Positions 1,731-5,601 of a stretch of 64,000 nt of DNA are shown one piece after another. Source of the DNA: Streptomyces sp. NBC_00539 (lineage in GTDB: Bacteria > Actinomycetota > Actinomycetes > Streptomycetales > Streptomycetaceae). Numbering within the stretch: the stretch's first letter is position 1; every line of letters begins with the position of its first letter. The DNA is taken from positions 3,724,501 to 3,788,500 of the forward strand of contig NZ_CP107811.1 of assembly GCF_036346105.1 (NCBI RefSeq), written 5' to 3'. The position numbers and the translations under genes are program-made. A model generated the notes under the pieces. It was not told the origin of the DNA and did no database searches. It saw only the letters and a program-made list of their open reading frames with translations.

Positions 1731-2915
1731 ATGAGCACGAAGGACTTCGTCGAGAAGGACTACTACAAGGTCCTCGGTGTCCCCAAGGACGCCACCGAGG
1801 CCGAGATCAAGAAGGCGTACCGGAAGCTCGCCCGCGAGTTCCACCCGGACGCCAACAAGGGCGACGCCTCGGCCGAGGAGCGCTTCAAGGAGATCTCCGA
1901 GGCGAACGACATCCTCGGGGACGCGAAGAAGCGCAAGGAGTACGACGAGGCGCGCGCGCTGTTCGGGAACGGCGGCTTCCGCCCCGGGCCCGGCGGGGCC
2001 GGCGGTTCGTTCAACTTCGACCTCGGTGACCTCTTCGGCGGCACGCAGCCGGGCGGCGCGGGCGGCGGCTTCGGCGGCGGCCTCGGTGACGTCTTCGGCG
2101 GCCTGTTCAACCGCGGCGGCGCGGGCCCCGGTGCGGGAACCCGCACCCAGCCCCGCCGCGGCCAGGACATCGAGTCGGAGGTCACCCTCTCCTTCACGGA
2201 GGCGGTGGACGGGGCCACGGTCCCGCTGCGGATGTCCTCGCAGGCGCCCTGCAAGGCCTGTTCGGGCACCGGCGACAAGAACGGCACCCCCCGGGTGTGC
2301 CCGACCTGCGTCGGTACGGGCCAGGTCTCGCGGGGCAGCGGCGGCGGCTTCTCGCTGACCGACCCCTGCGCGGACTGCAAGGGCCGCGGCCTGATCGCCG
2401 AGACCCCCTGTGACGTCTGCAAGGGCAGCGGCCGGGCCCGCAGCTCCCGCACCATGCAGGTCCGGATCCCGGCGGGCGTCTTCGACGGCCAGCGGATCCG
2501 GCTGCGCGGCAAGGGCGCCCCGGGTGAGCGCGGTGGTCCCGCCGGCGACCTGTACGTGGTCGTCCACGTCGGCAGCCACCCCGTGTTCGGCCGCAAGGAC
2601 GACAACCTGACGGTGACCGTCCCGGTGACGATCGCGGAGGCGGCACTCGGCGCCGAGATCAAGGTGCCGACGCTGAACGGTCCCCCGGTCACGCTGAAGC
2701 TGCCGCCGGGCACGCCCGGCGGCCGTACGATGCGCGCCCGGGGCAAGGGTGCGGTCCGCAAGGACGGCACCCGCGGAGACCTGCTGGTGACGGTCGAGGT
2801 GGCCGTCCCGGCGGAACTGTCGGACAAGGCCCGCGAGGCGCTGGAGATGTACCGCGACGCGACCGGGTCCGAGGACCCGCGTGCCGCGCTGTTCGAGTCC
2901 GCGAAGGGAGCATGA
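1731..2915 (+). CDS. dnaJ: Molecular chaperone DnaJ (DnaJ1, operon copy)
   Basis: A 394-residue type I Hsp40. The J domain (residues about 10-75) carries the HPD motif in REFHPDANKG; a Gly/Phe-rich stretch follows (about 80-145); then four CxxCxGxG zinc repeats (CKACSGTG, CPTCVGTG, CADCKGRG, CDVCKGSG) and the C-terminal client-binding domain. It delivers substrates to DnaK and stimulates its ATPase. A GAGAGGAGG ribosome site precedes the ATG. The next gene, hspR, starts one base after the stop. Confidence 0.97.
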   Translation: MSTKDFVEKDYYKVLGVPKDATEAEIKKAYRKLAREFHPDANKGDASAEERFKEISEANDILGDAKKRKEYDEARALFGNGGFRPGPGGAGGSFNFDLGDLFGGTQPGGAGGGFGGGLGDVFGGLFNRGGAGPGAGTRTQPRRGQDIESEVTLSFTEAVDGATVPLRMSSQAPCKACSGTGDKNGTPRVCPTCVGTGQVSRGSGGGFSLTDPCADCKGRGLIAETPCDVCKGSGRARSSRTMQVRIPAGVFDGQRIRLRGKGAPGERGGPAGDLYVVVHVGSHPVFGRKDDNLTVTVPVTIAEAALGAEIKVPTLNGPPVTLKLPPGTPGGRTMRARGKGAVRKDGTRGDLLVTVEVAVPAELSDKAREALEMYRDATGSEDPRAALFESAKGA

Positions 2916-2916
2916 G

Positions 2917-3363
2917 ATGGACGGCCGCCGCAGGAACCCGTACCAACTGACCGATGAGACACCGGTCTACGTGATCTCGGTGGCCGCCCAGCTCTCGGGT
3001 CTGCATCCGCAGACCCTGCGCCAGTACGACCGCCTCGGGCTGGTCTCACCGGACCGGACGGCGGGCCGCGGACGTCGGTATTCGGCCAGGGACATCGAGC
3101 TGCTCCGCACCGTGCAGGCGCTGTCCCAGGACGAGGGCATCAACCTGGCGGGGATCAAGCGGATCATCGAGCTCGAGAACCAGGTCGCGGCGCTCCAGCA
3201 GCGCGTGGCCGAGCTGTCCACCGCTGTGGACGGCGCGGCCGCCGCCCTGCGGGCAAGGGAAGCGCAGGTCCACGCCTCGTACCGGCGTGACCTGGTGCCG
3301 TACCAGCCGCCGCAGCCCGGCAGCGCCCTGGTCGTCTGGCGCCCCAAGCGCCCGAAGGACTGA
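2917..3363 (+). CDS. hspR: Heat-shock repressor HspR (MerR-type)
   Basis: A 148-residue MerR-family regulator. The N-terminal winged helix reads YVISVAAQLSGLHPQTLRQYDRLGL with the GRRYSARDIELL wing; a short coiled coil (NQVAALQQRVAEL) and a basic tail follow. HspR represses dnaK, clpB and related genes by binding HAIR operators, with DnaK as co-repressor, which gives feedback control. The ATG at 2917 is chosen because it begins the conserved sequence and sits one base after the dnaJ TGA; an upstream in-frame ATG lies inside dnaJ. A HAIR site is visible before clpB in this window. Confidence 0.95.
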   Translation: MDGRRRNPYQLTDETPVYVISVAAQLSGLHPQTLRQYDRLGLVSPDRTAGRGRRYSARDIELLRTVQALSQDEGINLAGIKRIIELENQVAALQQRVAELSTAVDGAAAALRAREAQVHASYRRDLVPYQPPQPGSALVVWRPKRPKD

Positions 3364-3440: not shown

Positions 3441-4400
3441 TCAGACGTGGCCCGGGGGCAGTGGTGGGGCCGCGCTGTGCAGGATGCCCGACTGGGCGAT
3501 GAGGAAGCCGAGTTGGGCGCGGCTGCCGCTGCCCAGGGCGGTCGCCAGCTTCGCGATGTGCGCGCGGCAGGTGCGGACGTTCATTCCCAGCCGGCGTGCG
3601 ATCGCCTCGTCCACGTGCCCTTCTATGAGCAGCTGGGCTATGGAGCGCTGCACGCCGGAGATACCATCCGGCGTGTGCGTGTACGTCACCTCGTCGCCCA
3701 ACGGCACGGCTCTGCGCCAGAGTTGCTCGAAGACCTTGATGAGGTAGTCGACCAGCCCCGGGTGCCGCAGCTCCAGGGCCACCCGGCGGTCGTCGCTCGC
3801 GGGGATGAACGCCACCGTGCGGTCGAAGATCATGAGGCGCTCTATCAGCTCTTCGAGCGTGCGGATCTCCACCTTCCCCGTGGAGATGCGGTCCACGTAG
3901 GCGAGCGTGCCCTGGCTGTGCCGCACCGTGTGCTGGTAGAGCGTCCTGATGCTCACCCCGCGGTCTATCAGCGGCGCGGCGCGCTCCAGGGCCTCGCTGA
4001 GGATGAACGTGGGCCTGGCGCCGCCCGGCTGGACCGTCAGGGCCTCGGTGTGGCACTCGGCGGTGGCGAGGTCCAGGGCGGCGTTGATCTGGTCGATGCC
4101 CTCGAGCACGGTGATGGCATGGGTGTTGGCGGGACTCTGGGCGCTGATGGCCAGGAACGGCTCGAATGCATCGGTGAGATCTACAGCGGTGCGTCTGCGG
4201 TCCTGGATCTCGCGTTCGATGGGGTGGAGCCGTTGGGCGAGTGCGACGGACGGGGGAACCGCGCGGAGCTGGTTCGCGTCATCGGGGTCGGGTCTCAGTA
4301 GAGCGAATTCGAGCAGGCAGGGGGCGTTCCTGACCTCACCGCGGGCGACGCGGCCGCTGCTGAGCGCGGCCGCGTAGAGGCGTGCTCCCTCGGCGCACAT
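3441..4400 (-). CDS. LuxR-type HTH transcriptional regulator, divergent from a small peptide gene
   Basis: About 319 residues. The C-terminal 60 residues form a LuxR/NarL-type helix-turn-helix (LLIEGHVDEAIARRLGMNVRTCRAHIAKL). The long N-terminal region (APCLLEFALL, PPSVALAQRL, a HPIEREIQDRR coiled helix, FDRTVAFIPA) matches my memory of a common Streptomyces family of stand-alone regulators. The frame is open upstream to an ATG at 4475, but I prefer the ATG at 4400: it begins the family-like sequence, and a TTGACA hexamer lies just upstream of it inside the longer frame. Neither start has a clear ribosome site. It is divergent from the peptide gene at 4579 and is probably its regulator (inference). 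Confidence 0.8.
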   Translation of the reverse strand: MCAEGARLYAAALSSGRVARGEVRNAPCLLEFALLRPDPDDANQLRAVPPSVALAQRLHPIEREIQDRRRTAVDLTDAFEPFLAISAQSPANTHAITVLEGIDQINAALDLATAECHTEALTVQPGGARPTFILSEALERAAPLIDRGVSIRTLYQHTVRHSQGTLAYVDRISTGKVEIRTLEELIERLMIFDRTVAFIPASDDRRVALELRHPGLVDYLIKVFEQLWRRAVPLGDEVTYTHTPDGISGVQRSIAQLLIEGHVDEAIARRLGMNVRTCRAHIAKLATALGSGSRAQLGFLIAQSGILHSAAPPLPPGHV

Positions 4401-4469
4401 CGCCGTGACGGGGTGGGGATGTGTCGGGTTTGTCTCGCTTCTTGTCAAATCTCCACCCCCCAGGGTCCT

Positions 4470-4486
4470 GAACATGTAAGAACATG
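4470..4486. promoter_or_regulatory. Direct repeat GAACATG, 10-bp period, between divergent genes
   Basis: GAACATG occurs at 4470-4476 and again at 4480-4486, one helical turn apart, in the spacer between the LuxR-type regulator and the DLGW peptide gene. It is a candidate operator for the regulator. No binding data support this; it is inferred from position and spacing. Confidence 0.35.
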
Positions 4487-4578
4487 ATGCATCGTCCCTG
4501 TGGCACTGACGTGCCTGAATGAGCCATCGTCTGTCACTGCGGGGGAGAGGATTCCATCAAGTGAGGACGAAGCCGACC

Positions 4579-4788
4579 ATGTATAAGAGAATGCTTCGCT
4601 CGGCGCTTGCCGTTGTTTTCTCCGCCGTTGCGGTCTTCGGAGCAGTCGTCGCCGTGGGCGGGGACGCGGGAAGCGTTCAGGCCAGTGCCGGTGCGCCCGT
4701 CGAGTCGGTAGGCAAGCACGATCTCGGCTGGAACACCGCTCCGCAAGACCTCGGCTGGGACACCGCGCCTGCGCAGGTTTCCCGGTGA
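4579..4788 (+). CDS. Small secreted or membrane peptide with tandem DLGW(N/D)TAP repeat
   Basis: A 69-residue protein. Basic start (MYKRMLRSA), a hydrophobic segment at residues 10-27 that could be a signal peptide or anchor, then a short polar region and two nine-residue repeats, DLGWNTAPQ (48-56) and DLGWDTAPA (57-65). The matching 27-bp DNA repeat spans 4720-4773. A GTGAGGA ribosome site lies about 11 bases before the ATG; a second ATG at 4591 is possible. The stop overlaps the GTG of the next gene (GTGA). I do not recognise a named family. Position beside a LuxR-type regulator suggests a signal or precursor peptide, but that is inference. Confidence 0.75.
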   Translation: MYKRMLRSALAVVFSAVAVFGAVVAVGGDAGSVQASAGAPVESVGKHDLGWNTAPQDLGWDTAPAQVSR

Positions 4789-5099
4789 CCCCCGACGACC
4801 GTGACTTCCGTCGCGAGATGGCTTCGGCGTACCGGTCCGGATGGCAGTTCATCGACCTCGCCACGGCGATCCCCCACGCCGGCGACTCGCTGATGGTCAC
4901 CCTGTTCGGCCAGCCGATCGTCGTAGTACGAGAAGAGGACGAAGACGTCCGGGCCTACCGCTGTCTGCGCCGCCCCCGGGGCGCACCGCAGCCCGTCCGC
5001 TGCGAAGTGCGGTACGGAATGGTCTTCGTCAACCTCGACCAGCGTGACCACCAGCTGTTCGAGCCCGATATCACCGCCGCCACCCCCCGAAGTGCCTGA
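4785..5099 (+). CDS. Rieske-fold-like small protein lacking cluster ligands
   Basis: A 104-residue protein coupled to the peptide gene by a GTGA overlap. Segments resemble the N-terminal Rieske region of ring-hydroxylating oxygenases: GWQFIDLATAIPHAGD, GQPIVVVREEDEDVRAYRC, then RYGMVFVNLDQ. The expected CxH...CxxH iron-sulfur ligands are missing: only CLRRPRG remains where CPHRG would be, and no second His pair follows. It therefore probably cannot hold a 2Fe-2S cluster. It is too short for a full oxygenase. Role unknown; it may act on, or serve as partner to, the coupled peptide. Confidence 0.65.
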   Translation: MTPDDRDFRREMASAYRSGWQFIDLATAIPHAGDSLMVTLFGQPIVVVREEDEDVRAYRCLRRPRGAPQPVRCEVRYGMVFVNLDQRDHQLFEPDITAATPRSA

Positions 5100-5196: not shown

Positions 5197-5601
5197 TCAG
5201 GCGCGGCCCATCGCCCGGTCCAGGGTGATCTCCAGGACGACCCGGTCCGGATTCGGCGAGGGCATCCGTCCGTACCGCTGCGCGTAGCGCTCCACCGCGT
5301 CGGCCACCGACGCCTCGTCCGTAACGACCGTGGCGCGCCCCTCCAGGGTGGCCCAGCGCCGGCCCTCCATCTGGCACACCGCGACCCTCGCGACGCCGTT
5401 CGGCGCGGCCAGCACGTTGCGGACCTTCTTGCTGTGCTTGTTGCTGATCACCCGGGCCAGCCCGGCCTCGGGGTCGTACGTGACACCGACCGGCACCACG
5501 TGCGGGCTGCCGTCCGGGCGGGGGGTGGTGAGGGTGCACACGTGCCGTTCCCGCCAGAAGGCGAGGTATGCGGGCGTGGGGTGGCGTACGTCGTGGGGCA
5601 T
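5197..5601 (-). CDS. PPOX-class F420-dependent oxidoreductase
   Basis: A 134-residue split-barrel flavin/F420-binding protein. Typical features are TPAYLAFWRERHVCTLTTPRPDGSPHVVPVG at the N-terminus (an active-site loop after the first strands), the SNKHSKKVRNV segment that contacts the cofactor phosphate, and the VAVCQMEGRRWATLEG strand pair. In actinobacteria this group usually uses F420 rather than FMN, and the substrate is unknown. It is a single gene facing away from clpB. Confidence 0.85.
   Translation of the reverse strand: MPHDVRHPTPAYLAFWRERHVCTLTTPRPDGSPHVVPVGVTYDPEAGLARVISNKHSKKVRNVLAAPNGVARVAVCQMEGRRWATLEGRATVVTDEASVADAVERYAQRYGRMPSPNPDRVVLEITLDRAMGRA

Follow-up and report, generated by a model that had tools for sequence, protein, structure and literature searches.

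The window is a stretch of 64,000 nucleotides from Streptomyces sp. NBC_00539, whose genome consists of a 7.07 Mb and a 0.44 Mb contig. Between hspR and clpB on this Streptomyces chromosome – dnaJ and hspR upstream, clpB downstream, all named by eye from their translations – lie a regulator gene, a divergent gene for a short peptide and a gene for a Rieske-like protein. The earlier note had placed and described these three genes, and their setting among heat-shock genes, correctly. The regulator (3441..4475, minus strand; 344 aa) is a putative peptide receptor, made of an N-terminal winged helix, a helical linker, a TrmB/PLD-like sensor and a C-terminal GerE/LuxR-type helix-turn-helix (HTH). 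The sensor domain (residues 117–261; 3693..4127, minus strand) has the fold of NucT, TrmBL2 and TrmB, while the HTH covers residues 269–332 (3480..3671, minus strand). The codon of residue 145, an alanine in the window that covaries with the second residue of the peptide core, is at 4041..4043 on the same strand. The peptide precursor (4579..4788, plus strand; 69 aa) looks secreted. It has a basic N-terminus and a hydrophobic core, followed by DLGWNTAP and DLGWDTAP; the signal-peptide-like leader (MYKRMLRSALAVVFSAVAVFGAVVAV...VQA; 4579..4683, plus strand; cleavage site predicted) is conserved in orthologues, and the two DLGW core copies stand at 4720..4731 and 4747..4758, both on the plus strand. 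The gene for the degenerate Rieske-like protein (4785..5099, plus strand; 104 aa) starts on a GTG inside the peptide stop, a 4-nt overlap reading GTGA.

Two repeats accompany the divergent genes. A conserved direct repeat, TGAACATG-N3-GAACATGATGCA, covers the start of the regulator (4469..4491, plus strand) and is a possible autoregulatory site; an inverted repeat noted by eye between the two genes, GGCAC-TGAC-GTGCC (4502..4515, plus strand), is partly conserved and might be an operator. When the genome was searched with the 23-bp direct repeat, allowing at most three mismatches, the sole match was the window's own, so that no regulon targets can be named from the motif. Behind the Rieske-like gene comes a PPOX-class F420-dependent oxidoreductase (5197..5601, minus strand; Pfam), a conserved neighbour and a candidate member of the system, which may be a mere neighbour. 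It keeps this place, on the opposite strand, in 29 of the 30 loci that were fetched with the peptide.

Those 30 loci were obtained by searching 150 Streptomyces genomes, the window precursor serving as query. Of these, 29 show a divergent regulator with the Rieske-like and PPOX genes coming next, the thirtieth (L047) being a paralogue at another place in its genome; clpB falls within reach in 27, hspR in 12. Because this search had used the peptide, a second one took the Rieske-like protein as query. The protein is present in 51 of the 63 Streptomyces (63 by listing order) among 200 genomes of the family, and the other genera gave just two weak matches (E about 4e-6). A precursor was found in all 29 loci fetched in this way (27 by script, 2 by eye), which include 24 genomes that had not been in the earlier sample. 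To widen the sample, a scan of named genomes was seeded with the most divergent Rieske-like protein, which gave 557 relatives and 80 loci kept; here again 80 of 80 have a precursor (75 by script, 5 by eye), all in genomes titled Streptomyces except one, Actinobacteria bacterium OV450. The two sets share four loci, hence 105 distinct ones, and neither was chosen by the peptide, while most of the 84-locus set used below was fetched with it. The adjacency of peptide, regulator and Rieske-like gene, on which the earlier note had built its idea of a system, is thus the rule at this locus; the finding that the note had named as fatal to it, peptide homologues with neither gene ever beside them, is not what the loci show. 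For the counts that follow, 216 loci with a Rieske-like gene were reduced to 176 distinct ones. Among the 40 dropped, three (L179, L241, L242) have precursors that the script pattern missed yet are visible otherwise, and the remaining 37 are duplicates or otherwise unusable rows. A full regulator is available in 163 of the 176, PPOX as well in 142, and both PPOX and ClpB in 112. That the window peptide might be a chance open reading frame is ruled out by the conservation of its leader and of its variable tryptophan cores: the putative peptide-receptor family is real and conserved.

The precursors share a simple anatomy. A filter on charge and hydropathy recognised a signal-like leader in 154 of 186 loci of the clpB type, the leader being otherwise judged by eye. 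In the 176 loci the mature region then carries 1 to 10 copies of a core, [D/N/E]-x-x-W, with two or more copies in 146, and 561 of the 566 tryptophans beyond residue 20 lie inside cores. By their first copy the loci fall into 41 core types, such as DSGW, DTGW, DIGW, DSTW, DSSW, EPTW, DPGW and DSKW. Within one precursor the x-x pair is identical in 976 of 994 pairs of cores, against 624 of 10,585 pairs of first cores (5.9%) taken from different multi-copy precursors; the 84-locus set gives the same picture (444 of 445 within, 2008 of 27,050 between). Cores are thus kept uniform inside each gene yet differ from species to species, the pattern expected of a species-specific signal. A structural repeat would not need this combination.

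The regulator varies in length from 320 to 389 aa in the 163 loci. The winged helix and the PLD-like sensor, which matches the TrmBL2/TrmB fold, are those of the TrmB family, and Pfam recognises the GerE HTH at the C-terminus. TPR domains are absent among the 13 Pfam families listed for 44 members, and no Pfam match to an autoinducer-binding (AHL) domain was obtained in the regulator, although the absence of a match does not exclude one. At E<=1e-20, 14 regulators of the TrmB-LuxR family are encoded in the window genome, several of them with secreted-looking tryptophan peptides of their own (EDDRWG, three copies of DVGWN, two of TTVWE).

Covariation between receptor and peptide is the strongest result of this work. 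Across the 163 loci, residue 145 of the regulator follows core residue 2 closely: serine goes with methionine (64/64), threonine with valine (37/37) and proline with leucine (16/16). Isoleucine goes with valine in 29 loci and with isoleucine in one; the 14 leucine cores, which include the window pair, have valine in nine, alanine in three (the window combination) and isoleucine in two; single loci pair phenylalanine with alanine and valine with valine. Permutation z-scores were inflated by relatedness in all regions, columns of the N-terminal region, the HTH and the Rieske-like protein also beating the null, and we therefore relied on tree tests. A tree of 142 loci was built without the sensor domain, from the Rieske-like protein, PPOX, ClpB and the HTH. 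On this tree 38 branches carry a change of core residue 2 and 31 a change of residue 145; the two coincide on 26, where 4.2 are expected (hypergeometric p 9.5e-23, the next column reaching 1.2e-7). The change from Thr/Val to Ser/Met occurred 11 times and its reverse six times. A tree of PPOX and ClpB (112 loci) has 23 of 28 branches shared (p 2e-18; next column 2e-8). The third residue of the core has its highest mutual information with regulator residues 152 and 154 (Gly with Arg154 in 64/64, Lys with Ser154 in 7/7), while the tree test for that residue ranked the N-terminal columns 55, 44 and 17 first. Mantel correlations with the core are 0.53 for the sensor (partial 0.22) and 0.52 for the N-terminal region of the regulator (partial 0.17). 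The N-terminal region is encoded beside the peptide, and linkage under recombination may explain its correlation. Only for residue 145, then, do we firmly argue, from these alignments, that it tracks the core.

The same pairs mostly recur among paralogous regulators, 37–53% identical where measured. DSxW occurs with Met145 in 9 of 9 and DTxW with Val145 in 5 of 5, with Fisher p of 1e-6 and 5e-4 respectively, computed on 34 rows that were tabulated by hand and are partly related. Indeed, four rows (L002, L358, L359, L360) are orthologues; two of the five Thr rows (L364, L053) were added in a second look, after their valine had been seen; and L370 was entered as DSGW despite an additional DNGW. 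It counts, with DDQW (Met or Val), among the exceptions or unclear cases. Peptides of the types TTVW, VIGW, DGFGW, STIW, WGDxW, GNYW, TFxW, GLAW, NMGW (Val) and DAGW (Phe) were excluded from the table. The Pro-Leu pair holds in L077 and in a phage, and fails in L080, where DPGW stands with serine; leucine cores have Val145 in three paralogues and Leu145 in two (DLGW with Leu, L136 and L137). Under a strict filter, a divergent secreted-looking peptide with a tryptophan core lies beside 20 of 108 paralogous regulators, compared with 23 of 1298 control reading frames; the tandem regulators found at the clpB locus are counted among the 108. L030, included in the 20, proved to be an orthologue from the clpB locus that had been sorted into the wrong set, which corrects the count to 19 of 107; beside the other 88 this filter shows no such peptide. 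The filter misses true precursors, since only 154 of the 186 clpB-locus precursors passed it. In the family of L002, a first look showed a [D/N/E]xxW peptide at 16 of 30 loci and a looser second one added three, none being seen at the remaining 11; at several loci of this family the peptide sits beyond the regulator rather than divergent from it, and was attributed to it because of its proximity.

The family also extends to viruses. Among phage records, a regulator of the family turned up in Streptomyces phage Chymera, at 30.5% identity. The precursor (gp30, 59 aa; 1855–2034 of the fetched segment 18693–24301 of KU958700) has a leader that ends in AQA, directly followed by DPGWG, with a second DPGWG at its end. 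The divergent TrmB-LuxR regulator (gp29; 2180–3130 of the same segment) has leucine at the position of residue 145, as read by eye from an LT-x-QP motif, and the integrase gene, gp32, is near the pair. Three viral contigs are related to it: one is identical, the regulators of the other two show 88% and 68% identity, and the DPGWG pair and the aligned leucine are preserved in every one, the most distant reading GLYTVQP there. No copy of the window regulator itself was confirmed in viral contigs.

The role of the Rieske-like protein is less easily grasped. It aligns with the N-terminal part of the alpha subunits of Rieske oxygenases (E 4.8e-5 with 5xbp), it is strongly conserved, W20 included, and C60, C73 and H89 are kept in 83, 82 and 84 of 84 loci. 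As the earlier note had seen, the iron-sulfur ligands are lacking: in the first pair arginine (Arg62) replaces cysteine and proline (Pro64) replaces histidine, and about 50 residues bearing the second pair are missing. With both ligand pairs gone, a functional Rieske enzyme that would modify the peptide is rejected at the level of sequence, and no dedicated modification enzyme of the RiPP kind was recognised beside the window pair. Thus, of the two options once put forward for this locus, signalling is strongly supported by precursor anatomy and covariation, and a modified peptide is not. Neither is the protein the reader of specificity: with Mantel 0.16 and partial –0.06, where the sensor reaches 0.53 and 0.22, its distances show hardly any relation to the core. 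It was met at this Streptomyces locus alone, apart from the two weak matches in other genera. The overlap with the peptide gene had been taken to mean coupled translation, hence equal amounts and a shared task. Present in the window, it is common rather than universal, the in-frame start standing at –4 in 44 of 83 loci examined, and there is a single Rieske-like gene in the window genome against several peptide-regulator pairs, so that this deduction is weak. A binding or scaffold role is possible.

Taken together, gene pairing, repeat anatomy, concerted change of the cores, covariation and sensor fold, all computed, make it probable that the locus belongs to a peptide-receptor signalling family resembling RRNPP quorum sensing without its TPR receptor. 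From these we infer the course of the signal. The precursor would be exported and the propeptide cleaved to short peptides with [D/N/E]-x-x-W as their core, DLGW in the window; these would be imported, probably by an oligopeptide permease, and bind the TrmB/PLD-like sensor of the cytoplasmic regulator, whose gene is divergent from theirs, altering its binding to DNA at the genes that it would regulate. Residue 145, on a strand of the sensor, would contact core residue 2 and set specificity, residues 152 and 154 may read core residue 3, and the Rieske-like protein would be an accessory at this locus.

Other explanations must be weighed against this one. Up to ten copies of the core in a precursor would fit a bulk product, and no regulon was identified by the genome motif search: the peptide might then be an effector – antimicrobial, envelope or developmental – sensed by the regulator for autoregulation or self-recognition. 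Yet core residue 2 tracks one residue of the sensor, so that the regulator appears to read the core itself, and the annotated neighbours of the Chymera pair include no export or modification gene; we consider an effector unlikely. It is just as doubtful, in our opinion, that the regulator binds its precursor while this is still in the cell and awaiting export, sensing secretion or heat stress and not its neighbours, with the Rieske-like protein as the chaperone of the pair. The company of clpB (in reach in 27 of 30 loci) and of hspR (in 12 of 30), together with the 4 nt shared with the Rieske-like gene in 44 of 83 loci, would suit such an intracellular sensor. But near-identical tandem copies that differ between species fit a released signal better, paralogous pairs live elsewhere in the genome or in a phage, and the window genome has a single Rieske-like gene.

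The covariation itself could be a by-product of the exchange of DNA blocks between species, carrying peptide and regulator together without any contact between them. Several columns of the regulator, some of them N-terminal, indeed change with the core at p 1e-7 to 1e-11, and the N-terminal Mantel correlation is close to that of the sensor. Such exchange would not explain why, for core residue 2, column 145 beats all others by at least 10 orders of magnitude, nor why paralogues show S-M and T-V again and a phage P-L. Residue volumes at the two positions are also complementary, column 145 being the most negative of all (Spearman –0.73, 163 loci), although over the 10 distinct combinations the trend is not significant (p 0.22). 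We regard this account as very improbable.

How does such a family compare with known systems? The criteria in use for RRNPP systems (Rap, Rgg, NprR, PlcR, PrgX) include a small Sec-secreted propeptide beside a receptor of 250–500 aa with a TPR domain (PMC10075063). Here, too, a small secreted-looking propeptide, from which a short linear peptide would derive, lies beside a receptor of that size, and pairs occur in chromosomes, on plasmids and in phages. By contrast, the receptor is TrmB/PLD-like with a GerE HTH, and it is because no TPR was found in it that we place the family outside RRNPP; moreover, the core ends in tryptophan and comes in tandem copies, and the hosts are Actinomycetota rather than Bacillota. 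The Chymera pair is a candidate for an arbitrium-like system: like AimR-AimP of Bacillus phages, a temperate phage has a secreted-looking peptide and a regulator near its integrase. AimR, however, is a TPR protein (PMC10075063), and the Chymera regulator belongs to the TrmB-LuxR family. Archaeal TrmB and TrmBL2 share the winged helix and PLD-like sensor of the window regulator, but they lack its extra C-terminal GerE HTH, and the ligand proposed here is a peptide, not a sugar. With the LuxR solos of actinomycetes the regulator has the GerE-type HTH in common; it differs by its TrmB/PLD-like sensor, its dedicated peptide and the lack of any match to AHL-binding or ATPase domains. The 104-aa protein likewise aligns with the N-terminal part of the alpha subunits of Rieske non-haem oxygenases (nitrotoluene and naphthalene dioxygenases), from which it differs in missing both ligand pairs and the catalytic domain. 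Outside bacteria, the yeast alpha-factor precursor also holds several pheromone copies in one secreted precursor, although its sequence is unrelated and its receptor is a GPCR.

The earlier note named no described system with these parts; among the open-licence papers listed in our searches we found no description of the peptide-receptor family, which is no proof of absence, and as far as these searches reach the family is undescribed. Some probable members have been met. In Streptomyces coelicolor clpB is SCO3661 and hspR is SCO3668 (PMC2631018), and SCO3664, a regulator, falls in the interval between them, which matches that of the window; by gene order it is probably the orthologue of the window regulator. 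Insertions in SCO3664 are reported among those raising actinorhodin more than 50-fold, some mutants exceeding 200-fold, and a complementing plasmid was constructed for the SCO3664 mutant (PMC6585502). SCO3665 (327 aa) and SCO3666 (394 aa) are likewise catalogued as regulators of the LuxR family (PMC3282765). By this indirect route, the peptide-receptor system is likely to be linked to antibiotic control. For the phylum, PMC10075063 describes signals as typically small, enzymatically made molecules. A broader reading, which we put forward tentatively and hold somewhat short of probable, is that Trp-ended peptides make up a large, undescribed family of signals in Streptomyces and in certain temperate phages of theirs, each released as tandem copies and recognised by its TrmB-LuxR receptor under an almost one-to-one code (Ser-Met, Thr-Val, Pro-Leu). 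Switching of cores would create private channels for species, the clpB-locus channel would repress antibiotic production, and phages would use theirs for lysogeny decisions or for listening to the host. If true, many orphan LuxR-type regulators would find their explanation in a peptide family that spans the genus and whose specificity can be read from sequence; such a family would also provide cheap synthetic inducers for silent antibiotic clusters and offer a natural series of orthogonal peptide-receptor pairs. Chymera is reported as an integrated prophage of S. venezuelae (PMC10117723), a laboratory strain, and this copy makes the idea of a peptide signal directly testable.

A few further observations deserve mention. 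At some loci of the clpB-hspR interval (L116–L125, L246, L305, L311) two to five regulators of the family stand together, as they do in 36 of 89 loci of related genomes at that place; the extra ones often differ at position 145, and most have no peptide of their own by the filters used. The plasmid relatives of the regulator are annotated as LuxR C-terminal-related or helix-turn-helix regulators. On a Kitasatospora plasmid (NZ_CP108290; positions 2010–2180 of locus L054) a DDTSWGG peptide, annotated as a hypothetical protein, is divergent from its own regulator, which has valine at 145; the window peptide itself, searched on plasmids, gave no match. Two paralogous loci (L382, L383) combine a DDKW core with arginine at position 145, which suggests a charge-pair version of the code. 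Repeat precursors with the cores VIGWDSxxA, GAGWD and TTVWE lie near related regulators at L134, L135, L155, L008 and L066. Finally, at L005 and L007, secreted-looking peptides upstream of related regulators end in TTAWGDxWCPxKPLD and, with their two cysteines, possibly form a disulfide-bearing branch.
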